This document shows positions 6,502 through 12,441 of a stretch of DNA of 50,495 nucleotides, piece by piece (position 1 is the stretch's first letter; each line of letters opens with the position of its first letter). A model generated the notes under the pieces. That model was not told where the DNA came from. It did no database searches and saw only the letters and a list, made by a program, of their open reading frames with translations. A program made the translations under genes and the position numbers. The DNA lies in the NCBI GenBank assembly GCA_009885545.1, contig VFKM01000128.1, positions 1-50,495 of the forward strand, in the 5' to 3' direction. Source of the DNA: Flavobacteriales bacterium. GTDB lineage: Bacteria; Bacteroidota; Bacteroidia; Flavobacteriales_D; Crocinitomicaceae.

Positions 6502-7494
6502 TCATCGTTCCTTATTCTTTTTCCCTCCAAATCGTATACCACCAAGTAGTTTTATCGTGTAAAATGTTTGTCTATAAATAAAATCATCAAAGCGAATAGA
6601 TTTATTATCAAAATCGGTTATTAGGAATACAAAAAACTTCGGAACAGAATATCCTCCAATCAGTCGAATGTCATATCTTGGAGCTAATCCTAAGAAACTC
6701 CGTGAAACATCATCCTTACTGTAAAACTTTGATTGTACAGAAAATCCTACACCAAATAAGGTTGAAAATTGCCAATTTTTCACTTTGTTGACATAAGCGT
6801 AACCAGGAATAACTCCAAAATCAACAGAAGAAATGGTGCTCGCAGAAGTTTTAGTATTTGATGAGTCGATTAAAACTTCCGGAACAATGGAATTACTTCC
6901 ATTGTTAAGACCAAAGATATTTAATGAATATTTTAAATACCAGGTTTTTACTTCTCTGTTGTAGTGCCCAGTTTTTCCTTTTAATGCAGATATTTTAAAG
7001 TTTTTGTCATGGAAATACCAAGCATTGGCTGAAAAACTTAAAGTATTTATGTTGGACTGAATGTCATGTGGTTGTAGTTTATTAAGGGTATCGTTCCATT
7101 TGTAAGCGTCGATGATTGCATATCCTTTATAGCTTCTAAAATCAACGTCAAAAAAAGTTTTTTTTATGGTAAAATCAAACCCGAGATTAAATGGTATTGT
7201 CTTACCATAATTACTAACAGATTTTACATTTCCTGGTAATGGGATGCCAATTCTAAAAGAAAACCATTTATAAGAAATACCAAAACCTAAAATCGTCCTG
7301 AAATTGTTTTTATATTTTAATTTATCTAAAGTTGAATTATACGGATAATGTACTGAGAATGGGGCAGAAGTATAACCTATATCAGTATATAAAATCACTT
7401 TGTTTTTAAATAGGGTATAGGGTAATGAATCCTGTTGACCCAACAAGTTAAATGAAAGTAAACCAAATAATGACAATAATATTTTATTTTTCAA
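6502..7494 (-). CDS. DUF4421 family outer-membrane-like protein
   Basis: A 330-residue protein with a signal peptide (MKNKILLSLFGLLSFNLLGQ) and many short amphipathic beta strands, such as FRTILGFGISYKWFSFRIGI and IPFNLGFDFTIKKTFFDVDF, ending IKLLGGIRFGGK. This fits the DUF4421 family, predicted outer-membrane barrels common in Bacteroidota with no known function. The start overlaps the 3' end of the S9 peptidase gene by 11 bases on the same strand, so the two are probably co-transcribed. It is tail-to-tail with the gene ending at 6467, with only 34 bases and no clear terminator between. Confidence 0.75.
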   Translation of the reverse strand: MKNKILLSLFGLLSFNLLGQQDSLPYTLFKNKVILYTDIGYTSAPFSVHYPYNSTLDKLKYKNNFRTILGFGISYKWFSFRIGIPLPGNVKSVSNYGKTIPFNLGFDFTIKKTFFDVDFRSYKGYAIIDAYKWNDTLNKLQPHDIQSNINTLSFSANAWYFHDKNFKISALKGKTGHYNREVKTWYLKYSLNIFGLNNGSNSIVPEVLIDSSNTKTSASTISSVDFGVIPGYAYVNKVKNWQFSTLFGVGFSVQSKFYSKDDVSRSFLGLAPRYDIRLIGGYSVPKFFVFLITDFDNKSIRFDDFIYRQTFYTIKLLGGIRFGGKKNKER

Positions 7495-9680: not shown

Positions 9681-10457
9681 ATGAAAAAGCTTTATAAATT
9701 TTTATTGAACAGTTTGCCTCGTCCATTATTGATTCGTTTAAGTTATCCATTTAAACTTATTGCACCATTACTATACAAAGGAAATAATGTAAAATGTCCT
9801 GTTTGTGAAAAATCTTTTTCGAAGTTTTTATCATATGGTTCTGATATTGCGCATAGAGAAAATGTCCTGTGTCCATATGATTTAACGCTTGAACGCCATC
9901 GTTTAATGTGGCTGTATTTAAAAGAATCTTCAGATTTCTTTACAGCAGAAAAGTTAAATGTCCTGCACATAGCACCAGAACAATGTTTTCATAAACGTTT
10001 TAAAGCACAAGCTAATTTGAATTATTTAACTGGTGATTTAGTTTCTCCAATAGCTGATATGCATTTCGATTTACATGATATTCCTTTGGGAAATGATAGG
10101 TTTGATGTTGTTTTTTGCAATCATGTGATGGAGCATGTTGATGACGCTTTACAATGCATGAAAGAATTACACCGCGTTATAAAGCCTGGCGGATGGGCAA
10201 TAATGCAGGTGCCTCAAGATTTTTCAAGAGAAGAAACCTTTGAGGATAAGAGTATCGTTACTCCTGAAGATAGAGAAAAACATTACTGGCAAAAAGACCA
10301 TGTACGTTTATTTGGATTGGATTACCCAAAATGGTTAGAAAAGGCTGGTTTTACTGTGACTGAGTTTAGAAAGGAATCCAAGTATGATGAGAAACTAATT
10401 TCTCTTTATCGTCTTCAGAAAGAAGAAGTTTTGTACATTGCACATAAAAACATATAA
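9681..10457 (+). CDS. Class I SAM-dependent methyltransferase with N-terminal cysteine knuckle
   Basis: A 258-residue protein. The methyltransferase core runs from about residue 95: LHIAPEQCF as motif I-like strand, FDVVFCNHVMEHV as motif IV region, and RVIKPGGWAIMQVPQ as motif VI. N-terminal to it is a small metal-binding-like segment, C39-P-V-C42, then C64-P-Y-D67-LTLERHR. In relatives the second pair is usually CxxC, so D67 replaces the fourth cysteine. The start is ATG 9681 (MKKLYKF), not the upstream TTG inside the promoter box. The stop is 2 bases before the MbnP-like gene, so it is co-transcribed with the copper-protein pair; its substrate is unknown. Confidence 0.8.
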   Translation: MKKLYKFLLNSLPRPLLIRLSYPFKLIAPLLYKGNNVKCPVCEKSFSKFLSYGSDIAHRENVLCPYDLTLERHRLMWLYLKESSDFFTAEKLNVLHIAPEQCFHKRFKAQANLNYLTGDLVSPIADMHFDLHDIPLGNDRFDVVFCNHVMEHVDDALQCMKELHRVIKPGGWAIMQVPQDFSREETFEDKSIVTPEDREKHYWQKDHVRLFGLDYPKWLEKAGFTVTEFRKESKYDEKLISLYRLQKEEVLYIAHKNI

Positions 10458-10459
10458 GT

Positions 10460-11446
10460 ATGAATAATATATTTCTCACCCTAATTATTACATTTTCATC
10501 AGCTCTTACGTGGGCTCAGCAAAATGTGTTCATTACATTTTCTCCAAAAGTCGCAAATGCAGATTTAGTTATGGGGACAAATGTGTCAAATCTTGATGGT
10601 GTTGATTTTAATTTAGAATATTTTGATTATTACATTTCAGGAGTACATATTATTCATGATGGAGGACAAGATTTGGACTTATCAGAGAATATCTATTTAA
10701 TTGAACCAAATAATAATGTGATGTATTTGGGTTTTTGGAATATTACAAATATTGAACAAATAAATTTTGCTGTTGGTGTTCCACCAAATTTAAACACCCA
10801 AAATGGTGCAGATGCGATTGATATTTCAGTTTACCCACATGGACATCCGTTGAGCTTTCAAGAACCTTCTATGTATTGGGGGTGGACTTCAGGTTATGCA
10901 CATGTTATAATTGGTGGACTTGCGGATTCAGATGGTGATAATAATCCTGATGCCCTTTTTCAGATTCATAATCTTGATAATTCTAATTATTTGCCTTTCG
11001 AACTTCCTGTTGTTCAAACACAATCGAATCCTTCTCAAATTGACGTTTATGTGAATTGCAATGTTGATGTATGGATAAAAAACATTGCAATTGAGACAAT
11101 TGGAGTTCAACATGGTTCAAATGCTGAAAACGTTTTAATGATGCAAAACATTCTAACAGACCCAGTATTTAATCAATCTGCAAGCGCATCACTTTCGAAT
11201 GCATCAAAAGAAATTGGAACATTGACTTTTTTAAGTGAAAATTCAACTTTATCTATTACCTGGAAAAACATTAAAGGAGTTGACTCTTATGAATTGACTG
11301 ATGTTTCTGGTAAAAAAGTAAGAACTGGAGCTATACTCGACGAAACTGGAAAAGTGGACTTTAACAATTTATCAAATGGAATCTATCAATTTAAGATTTT
11401 TGACAAAAACTCAAATTCACTAAACACGATAAAGGTTGCAATTTAA
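10460..11446 (+). CDS. MbnP-like copper-binding protein candidate with T9SS type A sorting tail
   Basis: A 328-residue exported protein with a signal peptide (MNNIFLTLIITFSSALTWAQ). The middle matches the MbnP domain pattern: YFDYYISGVHII, then VYPHGHP and the tryptophan-rich PSMYWGWTSGYAHVIIGG, then LFQIHNLDN. In characterised MbnP a tryptophan is oxidised to kynurenine by the di-heme partner MbnH, creating a copper site; W residues in YWGW are candidates. The last 70 residues (YELTDVSGKKVR, LSNGIYQFKIF) are a T9SS sorting domain, so the protein should reach the cell surface. The stop overlaps the start of the MbnH-like gene (TAATG), indicating coupling. No methanobactin genes are present. 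Confidence 0.72.
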   Translation: MNNIFLTLIITFSSALTWAQQNVFITFSPKVANADLVMGTNVSNLDGVDFNLEYFDYYISGVHIIHDGGQDLDLSENIYLIEPNNNVMYLGFWNITNIEQINFAVGVPPNLNTQNGADAIDISVYPHGHPLSFQEPSMYWGWTSGYAHVIIGGLADSDGDNNPDALFQIHNLDNSNYLPFELPVVQTQSNPSQIDVYVNCNVDVWIKNIAIETIGVQHGSNAENVLMMQNILTDPVFNQSASASLSNASKEIGTLTFLSENSTLSITWKNIKGVDSYELTDVSGKKVRTGAILDETGKVDFNNLSNGIYQFKIFDKNSNSLNTIKVAI

Positions 11447-12441
11447 TGAGGATGCAATATCCATTTTCAATTATTCTTTTAATTGGGACAATTTGTTTGT
11501 CCCTTTTTTTATTTCAGTGTAAAGCGACAAACCAAATTATAACACCAATGGGGGAGGCGTTAATACCTTCTGAAAACCCTACAACCCAAGATAAAATTGA
11601 ATTGGGAAGGAAATTATTTTTTGACAAACGACTTTCGTCTGATGAAACGATTTCTTGTAGTTCCTGTCACTTACCAGAATTTGCCTTTACTGATCGAAAA
11701 AAATTAAGCGATGGAGTTGAGGGACGTAAAACGCAAAGGAATTCCCCATCTATATTGAATGCTGGATATTTACCAACGGTAATGTTTGATGCACATCTTA
11801 AAACACTAGAATTACAAGTAATAGTGCCAATTCAAGAACATGTTGAAATGGATATGAATATGGTCAACTTAATAAGAAGACTTAAAAATATAGATGATTA
11901 TAATGAATCAGCCAAGCGAATTTACAATCGAGAATTCGACGCCTATGTATTAACTAGAAGTATATCTGCTTTTGAGAGATCTTTAATATCACAAAACTCT
12001 CGTTATGATCAATATAGTGCAGGGAATAAAAAAGCGTTATCAAAAGATGAAATTCAAGGATGGAAATTATTTTCAGAAGTATTACATTGCATTAAATGTC
12101 ACCCAGCACCTAGCTTTACAAACTATTTACCTGAAAACAATGGATTGTATCTTGATTACGGTTCAGATTTGGGCCGTTTTAGAATATTCAATGATTCAAA
12201 TGATATTGGAAAATTCAAAGTGCCTTCACTGAGAAATATAGCATTAACGTTTCCATACATGCATGATGGCAGTTTAGAAAGTTTAGATGCTGTTTTAGAA
12301 CATTATCAATCTGGAGGGAAGGCACATCCCAATAAAAACAAGATTATTCAGCCGTTTCAATTAACTGATTTACAAACGATGCAATTAAAAAAATTCCTTT
12401 TTTCATTGACAGACACAAGCTATATGTCTGAATTTCGTTGA
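11446..12441 (+). CDS. Di-heme cytochrome-c peroxidase/MauG family lipoprotein, probable MbnH
   Basis: A 331-residue protein with a hydrophobic leader ending at a lipidation cysteine, C25 (LFLFQC). Heme-binding motifs are C71-S-S-C74-H75 and C215-I-K-C218-H219. A late PYMHDGSLESLDAVLEHY segment (M272) is typical of the bacterial cytochrome c peroxidase, MauG and MbnH group. Adjacency to, and a one-base overlap with, the MbnP-like gene favours MbnH, which oxidises a tryptophan on MbnP, over a peroxide-detoxifying peroxidase. It acts in the periplasm or on a membrane surface. A plain cytochrome c peroxidase remains possible. Confidence 0.82.
   Translation: MRMQYPFSIILLIGTICLSLFLFQCKATNQIITPMGEALIPSENPTTQDKIELGRKLFFDKRLSSDETISCSSCHLPEFAFTDRKKLSDGVEGRKTQRNSPSILNAGYLPTVMFDAHLKTLELQVIVPIQEHVEMDMNMVNLIRRLKNIDDYNESAKRIYNREFDAYVLTRSISAFERSLISQNSRYDQYSAGNKKALSKDEIQGWKLFSEVLHCIKCHPAPSFTNYLPENNGLYLDYGSDLGRFRIFNDSNDIGKFKVPSLRNIALTFPYMHDGSLESLDAVLEHYQSGGKAHPNKNKIIQPFQLTDLQTMQLKKFLFSLTDTSYMSEFR

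Follow-up and report, generated by a model that had tools for sequence, protein, structure and literature searches.

A methyltransferase, an MbnP-family protein and a di-heme enzyme on one strand

The window, the whole stretch of 50,495 nucleotides that was analysed, carries three consecutive genes on its forward strand: a class I SAM-dependent methyltransferase (positions 9681-10457, 258 aa, with N-terminal helices and a C39xxC42/C64 motif), an MbnP-family protein with a C-terminal T9SS-type domain (10460-11446, 328 aa) and an MbnH/MauG-type di-heme enzyme (11446-12441, 331 aa). The gene order and spacing given in a preliminary description of this DNA were exact, with a 2-base gap between the first two genes and a 1-base overlap between the last two. 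Judging from these distances, the methyltransferase is probably co-transcribed with the MbnP/MbnH genes. The overlap also provides the adjacency to an MbnP gene by which MbnH is recognized in genomes. Two more MbnP/MbnH pairs were found in the host genome besides the window pair.

The MbnP-like features attributed earlier to the middle gene were confirmed by a profile search, in which its product matched PF20243 with 77.4 bits (curated cut-off, 27), and by the predicted fold. Indeed, VIA-align matched model residues 19-247 (MbnP domain, 10514-11200) to Methylosinus trichosporium MbnP (7l6g_F) with a Z score of 17.1 and an rmsd of 2.9 over 205 residues. Since the score for TIGR04052, an equivalog model of an MbnP subfamily, was 34.7 bits, under the cut-off of 140, the protein was not filed in that subfamily. 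The four-Cys motif in the name of 7l6g is missing from the window protein, which has a single Cys (C200), and phmmer searches of the PDB with this protein and with the C83 MbnP as queries matched no MbnP. The YWGW stretch (residues 139-142, 10874-10885) contains W140 and W142, the candidate kynurenine precursors. This WxW motif was invariant in 71/71 aligned MbnPs, and in a weak profile match (A4 profile against the PDB, E 0.06) YWGW lay opposite WNW of 7l6g. Candidate copper ligands are H170 (10967-10969), which is His in 23/23 MbnPs from methyltransferase-MbnP-enzyme trios and in 43/48 other MbnPs, and H218 (11111-11113), which is His in 23/23 and 37/48, respectively. Two apparent fusions were rejected: a "625-aa" product (L099) that looked like a natural MbnP-MbnH fusion turned out to be two genes sharing a frame, MbnP and MbnH, whose single intervening TAG stop had been read through, and a 454-aa product (L100) joined MbnP to a stretch that appeared endonuclease-like by eye and was open at the contig end.

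The T9SS tail of the preliminary description corresponds to a C-terminal Ig-like domain (residues 250-328, 11207-11443) resembling a T9SS type A sorting domain. This assignment was supported by the predicted model, in which the domain folds separately, by an alignment of 29 members including the window protein, 21 of which match PF18962 at E<=0.01, and by SprA in the host genome (TIGR04189, 2425 bits), which identifies a T9SS translocon. However, the window protein itself scored just under the curated cut-offs (23.2 versus 27 for PF18962; 22.6 versus 23 for TIGR04183). Because these cut-offs were missed and relatives match, the tail was filed as T9SS-type and not as certain T9SS type A cargo. 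Each of the 23 trio MbnPs has such a tail, 77-82 residues long. A search of the PDB with the A1 profile matched the tail, giving weak matches to the solved T9SS domains 8glk and 8glj and none to MbnP structures.

The di-heme enzyme and its inter-heme position

The last gene product belongs to the CCP_MauG domain family, with a PF03150 match of 170.5 bits and two CxxCH motifs. Both heme motifs were present as claimed, C71SSC74H75 at 11656-11670 and C215IKC218H219 at 12088-12102, and they are intact in 23/23 trio enzymes and in 23/23 enzymes that follow the methyltransferase without MbnP (duos). Among named relatives, motif 1 was found in 77/77 and motif 2 in 74/77, the other 3 being gaps. When the protein was compared with MbnH, MauG and peroxidases, 6e1c, TIGR04039 and TIGR03791 ranked ahead of the peroxidase models. 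With the highest scores going to 6e1c and to the models for MbnH and MauG, a classical cytochrome c peroxidase was rejected. The best PDB match (E 6.8e-47, ahead of peroxidases and MauG) was 6e1c, an entry titled "Di-heme enzyme" which we take to be MbnH of M. trichosporium. TIGR04039 was the best NCBIfam match at 257.8 bits, and the enzyme was filed as MbnH-like only because this lies under the cut-off of 362.85, which was passed by 0/25 related genomes' matches. Y287 (12304-12306) is a candidate sixth ligand of the second heme, as Tyr is in MauG; its column holds Tyr in 23/23 trio, 21/23 duo and 47/48 other MbnP-paired enzymes. The enzyme had also been described as lipidated. Its N-terminal Cys stands at a usual place, but 55/78 enzymes have K, R or Q at residue -1, and a simple lipobox pattern was found in 0/23 trio enzymes versus 32/48 other MbnP-paired enzymes, so that lipidation appears doubtful from the sequence.

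According to alignments with 6e1c and 3hq6 and to column counts, F114 (11785-11787) occupies the inter-heme Trp position of peroxidases and 6e1c, which we infer to be equivalent to Trp93 of MauG. This column holds F or Y in 23/23 trio enzymes and in 77/77 named relatives, two overlapping sets (27 of the 77 named-record enzymes have a 60-residue stretch in common with the 105-row set), and Trp is kept by 8/23 duo enzymes. The di-heme enzyme set left out proteins of <280 aa. In the tree, 23/25 duos entered as duos; the G124 enzyme, whose methyltransferase is truncated by the start of the contig, entered as "H", and the broken G289 enzyme was left out. The enzymes of all 23 trios fell into one clade, and the methyltransferase-linked enzymes formed one 55-row group (SH-aLRT 93), distinct from the clade of 40/48 MbnP-paired MbnHs that have no methyltransferase link. 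That the trio enzymes are a single clade with Phe or Tyr in place of the inter-heme Trp is a new observation. BthA of Burkholderia is likewise a CCP_MauG-family di-heme enzyme without this Trp, a bis-Fe(IV) enzyme with Ser there instead of Phe/Tyr, and the excerpt of its description states no MbnP partner for it (PMC6405878).

Conservation and linkage of the methyltransferase

The first gene product matched PF08241 with 50.7 bits; its alignment contains invariant columns, and its predicted model has a pLDDT of 86.7. The best Foldseek match of this model was 6f5z (E 1e-9, TM 0.47), and varied methyltransferases alone were among the matches listed in sequence and fold searches. No signal peptide or export signal was seen by inspection. 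Full-length methyltransferase orthologues share 63-88% identity, versus about 25-67% for long MbnP matches; the alignments of relatives took 58 of 79 available sequences (A2) and 34 of 67 (A3).

A gene neighborhood survey bore out the linkage noted earlier: the methyltransferase lies directly upstream in 68/78 related named loci, and MbnH lies directly downstream of MbnP in 77/78 named loci with room. The family survey comprised 101 methyltransferase places, after 6 fragmentary, weak or second-copy methyltransferase rows had been left out, along with MbnP rows weaker than about E 1e-16. The enzyme follows without MbnP in 25 of these places, out of 48 where the enzyme follows, and at 49 places the enzyme or MbnP does not adjoin the methyltransferase. 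Another MbnH lies no more than 1.5 kb from each of the 46 MbnPs in the 25 duo genomes. Both the position of the methyltransferase directly upstream in most related loci and the duos beside MbnPs that have other MbnHs are new. Across the phylum, the methyltransferase was found in 53/247 sampled genomes, and neither MbnP nor MbnH was near it at any of the 28 loci checked from 51 outside-family genomes that have it. Since the methyltransferase occurs without the pair and the surrounding gene order is generally conserved, the link may be passive. The task of the methyltransferase is probably cytoplasmic, separate from the pair and older. None of the contrary outcomes named beforehand (no MbnP profile match, clustering with peroxidases, linkage absent in relatives) was seen, peroxidase clustering being judged by profile and PDB scores.

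Proposed copper-site maturation and alternative readings

The window pair is related to a gene pair that builds copper sites through tryptophan oxidation. It resembles the pair of M. trichosporium in its MbnP fold, its WxW motif (in a weak alignment), the di-heme partner directly downstream and the best match to 6e1c. Unlike that pair, it has a T9SS-type domain, an inter-heme Phe and an upstream methyltransferase, and no four-Cys motif or MbnB was found. The MbnB-type profile PF05114 matched 2/14 control genomes but nothing in the host genome, which is 89% complete, and the MbnC profile TIGR04160 matched neither the host genome nor any control genome. With no PF05114 match, a methanobactin system was rejected, in line with the earlier proposal of a pair without methanobactin. 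Such an arrangement is not special, however, since the available part of a 2013 paper describes MbnP/MbnH pairs far beyond methanobactin producers (PMC3621798). The locus also resembles MopE/SACCP of Methylococcus capsulatus and CorA/CorB of Methylomicrobium album, surface copper proteins beside di-heme peroxidase-like genes that, in the sections consulted, contain kynurenine; the CorA site consists of two His and kynurenine, and its di-heme partner is co-transcribed (PMC3912023, PMC3621798). The earlier suggestion that modified MbnP is placed on the cell surface is favored by the sorting tail, but kynurenine copper proteins at the surface are not new. CorA and MopE were absent among the fold matches listed for the window MbnP. 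T9SS export of MopE or CorA is not known. Literature searches found nothing joining T9SS with methanobactin, nothing under "metallo-mystery pair" and nothing joining at least three of Crocinitomicaceae, cytochrome c peroxidase, copper and T9SS.

We favor, with roughly even confidence, a variant MbnP/MbnH system in which kynurenine/copper-site maturation in the periplasm would precede T9SS export. This reading builds on the observed gene order, MbnP fold, sorting domain, heme motifs, phylogenetic placement and inter-heme Phe. It is further favored by the PF20243 match, the invariant WxW with the conserved H170 and H218, the regular downstream position of MbnH, the 6e1c match, SprA in the genome and the parallels with CorA and BthA. 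MbnP and the di-heme enzyme would enter the periplasm via Sec, where the peroxide-driven enzyme would oxidize one YWGW tryptophan (W140 or W142) to kynurenine. Together with H170 and H218, the kynurenine would form a mononuclear copper site like those of CorA and MopE, and the finished MbnP would be moved by T9SS to the cell surface, there to bind or buffer scarce copper. With Phe between the hemes, oxidizing equivalents would pass without a Trp relay, as they do in BthA with Ser. Counting against this reading are the enzyme's clade, which is not that of 40/48 MbnP-paired MbnHs without a methyltransferase link, the low TIGR04052 score, the missing four-Cys motif and the tail scores under the curated cut-offs. 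The preliminary description had proposed the same chemistry without methanobactin; the pair and the lack of an MbnB match agree with this, but the proposal is weakened because the inter-heme Trp is missing and about half of the methyltransferase-linked relatives have no MbnP.

Those relatives could instead mean that the linked enzymes are a separate oxidase/peroxidase line, with the methyltransferase (or its product) as the steadier partner and MbnP as an optional substrate gained or lost. We consider this unlikely. It would account for the 25/101 places with an enzyme and no MbnP, for the other MbnHs beside all MbnPs of those genomes, for the heme motifs and Tyr retained by the orphan enzymes and for the single group of linked enzymes; yet it fits poorly with the 49/101 places that lack the enzyme or MbnP next to the methyltransferase, with the pair's absence at 28/28 outside-family loci and with a gene order conserved widely enough for a passive link. 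Quite unlikely is a mere peroxidase that removes periplasmic hydrogen peroxide beside an MbnP that binds copper without kynurenine. The Phe or Tyr of the trio enzymes could be read in this way, and in the excerpt of one study growth results in another methanotroph were interpreted as a sign that copper is bound independently of the di-heme protein (PMC3912023). However, the inter-heme Trp occurs in peroxidases too, according to the excerpt on BthA (PMC6405878), so that its loss does not favor one. Moreover, 6e1c and TIGR04039/TIGR03791 outrank peroxidase models, a Tyr that may replace the peroxidase Met lies near the second heme, and MbnP is closely paired with the enzyme in trios. Methylation of MbnP or the enzyme before export, which the 2-base gap and the frequent upstream position on the same strand might suggest, is highly improbable, and the methyltransferase was rejected as a dedicated MbnP modifier, since no signal peptide was seen in it, its conservation far exceeds that of the proposed target, and it is retained at places that have no MbnP and occurs across the phylum at loci without the pair.

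A wider reading, tentative and rather doubtful, is that MauG-type enzymes of the family include a line of their own, the majority of which work without the inter-heme tryptophan. Its lasting genetic partner would be the cytoplasmic methyltransferase and not MbnP, and it would mature a T9SS-exported surface copper protein in some lineages and act on another substrate elsewhere. The orphan enzymes beside the methyltransferase raise the question of their oxidation target. The trios, with the presumed substrate still adjacent, are a natural setting in which to test whether the inter-heme Trp is required for MauG-type tryptophan oxidation. For the variant MbnP/MbnH system itself, the finding ties MbnP-type copper proteins to T9SS. 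MbnP genes were found in 234/249 genomes sampled from the order; copper handling by such proteins may therefore be a general trait in this order and not a methanotroph speciality.

The locus and its MbnP-like protein

The three genes share the + strand, the first two separated by 2 bases and the last two overlapping by 1, at the coordinates given in the preliminary description: a class I methyltransferase (9681-10457), an MbnP-like protein (10460-11446) and a di-heme protein (11446-12441). The MbnP-like features attributed to the middle gene were borne out. PF20243 matched residues 21-213 at 77.4 bits (cut-off, 27), and residues 19-247 of an AlphaFold2 model (pLDDT 88; alignment of 59 sequences) matched M. 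trichosporium MbnP 7l6g (Z 17.1; 205 residues; 2.9 A); the remaining fold matches listed, with Z of 10 and below, all fell within residues 247-328. TIGR04052, the stricter MbnP subfamily, was not reached (34.7 bits; cut-off, 140), and its four-Cys motif was not found in the window protein. W140 and W142 were invariant across 71 aligned MbnPs, and all 23 MbnPs from methyltransferase-MbnP-enzyme loci (trios) kept H170 and H218, which were present in 43 and 37 of the 48 others, respectively. Since copper in CorA is bound by two His, water and kynurenine (PMC3912023), H170 and H218 are reasonable candidates for copper ligands.

The protein is ordinary as one among the many MbnPs of its order, in which 234 of the 249 genomes sampled carried MbnP genes. 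Its closest relatives in named records (best 80 of at least 481) were MAGs titled mostly Flavobacteriales or Crocinitomicaceae, some titles, such as Polynucleobacter or Kuenenia, being improbable. Profile searches of the draft genome (3.16 Mb, 89% complete) returned three matches each for PF20243 and PF03150, in the same three places, giving two more MbnP/MbnH pairs on contigs C83 and C202; no further CCP_MauG match was found in this genome at E<=0.001. Ahead of the C83 pair (L007:3594-8077) stand a sigma factor of ECF type and a protein of 150 aa labeled Spy-like by eye, which had no match in Pfam, and the pair is followed by a YHYH protein (PF14240) whose T9SS tail is strong; the order MbnP-MbnH-YHYH was likewise seen by eye in L100, a locus from another family. 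On C202 (L008:4135-5969), both proteins are lipoprotein-like; starting at the lipid Cys they read CKDD and CKKD, which comes near the C-X-K-(D/E)2 signal for export of surface lipoproteins (PMC5080379) but is out of register.

The C-terminal tail of MbnP

Residues 250-328 are predicted to form a separately folded Ig-like domain. The proposed T9SS tail was upheld for the group, with PF18962 matched at E<=0.01 by 21 of 29 aligned members and SprA encoded in the same genome, but the window protein itself narrowly missed the curated sorting-domain cut-offs. A profile built from the 29 members weakly matched the lipase tail 7pzj (E 0.0014) and, at E about 0.02, two T9SS sorting domains of solved structure, 8glk and 8glj. 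Tail length was 77-82 residues in 23/23 trio MbnPs. The tail is not a trio-only trait: 40 of the 71 aligned MbnPs are tailed in all, and some of these adjoin an ordinary Trp-bearing MbnH. Tandem tailed MbnPs occur in the loci L109:1-5092 and L110, in the former downstream of genes judged by eye to be of cupredoxin-like multicopper-oxidase type.

The di-heme enzyme

Both heme motifs are kept in the third gene product, confirming its di-heme character; its best models were TIGR04039 (MbnH, 257.8 bits) and TIGR03791 (MauG, 186.6 bits), both below cut-off. The TIGR04039 cut-off looks too strict for this group, since no match exceeded it in 25 related genomes. The PDB ranking placed 6e1c first (E 6.8e-47), followed by peroxidases and then MauG. 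Residue 114 is Phe where 6e1c and peroxidase 3hq6 have an aligned Trp, and by way of these two it would correspond to MauG Trp93. As reported in PMC6405878, that inter-heme Trp participates in charge sharing between the hemes, and BthA forms bis-Fe(IV) though the Trp is absent.

Position 114 was F or Y in all 23 trio enzymes and W in 38 of the 48 others that are paired with an MbnP; the two heme motifs and Tyr287 were otherwise kept. Among 77 enzymes adjoining trio-like MbnPs in named records, 27 of which are shared with the alignment and tree set, it was F in 69, Y in 8 and W in none. The 23 enzymes that follow the methyltransferase without an MbnP (duos) had W in 8 cases, Y in 8 and F in 7, a mix that counts against a clean rule. 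As to the suggested lipidation, the N-terminal Cys (window:11515-11535) is present, but K, R or Q precedes it in 55/78 enzymes, unlike in a normal lipobox, and a simple lipobox occurs in 0/23 trio enzymes versus 32/48 other MbnP-paired ones. Four loci from other genera (L101, L105, L107 and L108) combine a tailed MbnP with two di-heme enzymes: immediately downstream lies one of the ordinary kind (WDG), and nearby, in the orientation opposite to the pair, one of the Phe type (FDG).

Methyltransferase linkage and orphan enzymes

The methyltransferase, of generic fold, was found at E<=1e-30 in 102/120 Crocinitomicaceae genomes sampled, nearly always as a single copy, and full-length orthologues share 63-88% identity. 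The 101 places kept comprised 23 trios, 3 more trios cut at a contig end, 25 with the enzyme directly next and no MbnP, 1 convergent with MbnP and 49 with neither adjacent, one of which (genome G278) has a convergent MbnP/MbnH pair nearby. Methyltransferase and following enzyme shared a strand in 48/48 cases. In named records (best 80 of at least 481), MbnP was directly preceded by the methyltransferase in 68/78 loci that had room and directly followed by MbnH in 77/78; this selection, made with a trio-rich query, biases the methyltransferase share upward. The trio linkage holds more firmly than the right flank does and about as firmly as the left, since a divergent peptidase or outer-membrane-type neighbor was found upstream in 54/64 trio loci with room, a sigma factor downstream in only 13/56, and both flanks differed in 10 loci retaining the trio. 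The conserved left flank consists of a divergent prolyl oligopeptidase (window:7484-9589) and an outer membrane protein (6502-7494) called DUF4421-like from PF14391 matches in two relatives, the window's own protein having no Pfam match. Outside the family, neither MbnP nor MbnH was found within about 1.5 kb of the methyltransferase at any of 28 loci checked; the methyltransferase therefore has a task of its own. Selection for its linkage to the pair is possible.

Each of the 46 MbnPs in the 25 duo genomes lies within 1.5 kb of an MbnH, and that MbnH is never the methyltransferase-linked enzyme. In a 105-enzyme tree (quick method, midpoint root), all 46 linked rows (23 trio, 23 duo) fell inside one 55-row group (SH-aLRT 93, not starred), the rest of which comprised 6 MbnP-paired enzymes without the linkage and 3 further rows; another group held 40 of the 48 MbnP-paired unlinked enzymes. 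MbnP presence switches at least three times among the linked rows of this tree.

Kynurenine-dependent copper binding in the MbnP family was reportedly described by Manesis in 2021. A 2013 paper had used TIGRFAM models and a genome property to describe pairs beyond the producers of methanobactin (PMC3621798), and the surface copper proteins MopE and CorA, with kynurenine, were already known (PMC3912023). What is new is the combination of a T9SS-type tail, Phe/Tyr at the inter-heme Trp site of trio enzymes, methyltransferase linkage and orphan (duo) enzymes, which no paper in the open-licence literature was found to join, among the matches listed. The trio is a real, well-placed variant of the known MbnP/MbnH system, and the interest of the locus lies in its enzyme and its orphans, the oddest feature being a MauG-type line that retains its hemes where the presumed substrate, MbnP, is absent.
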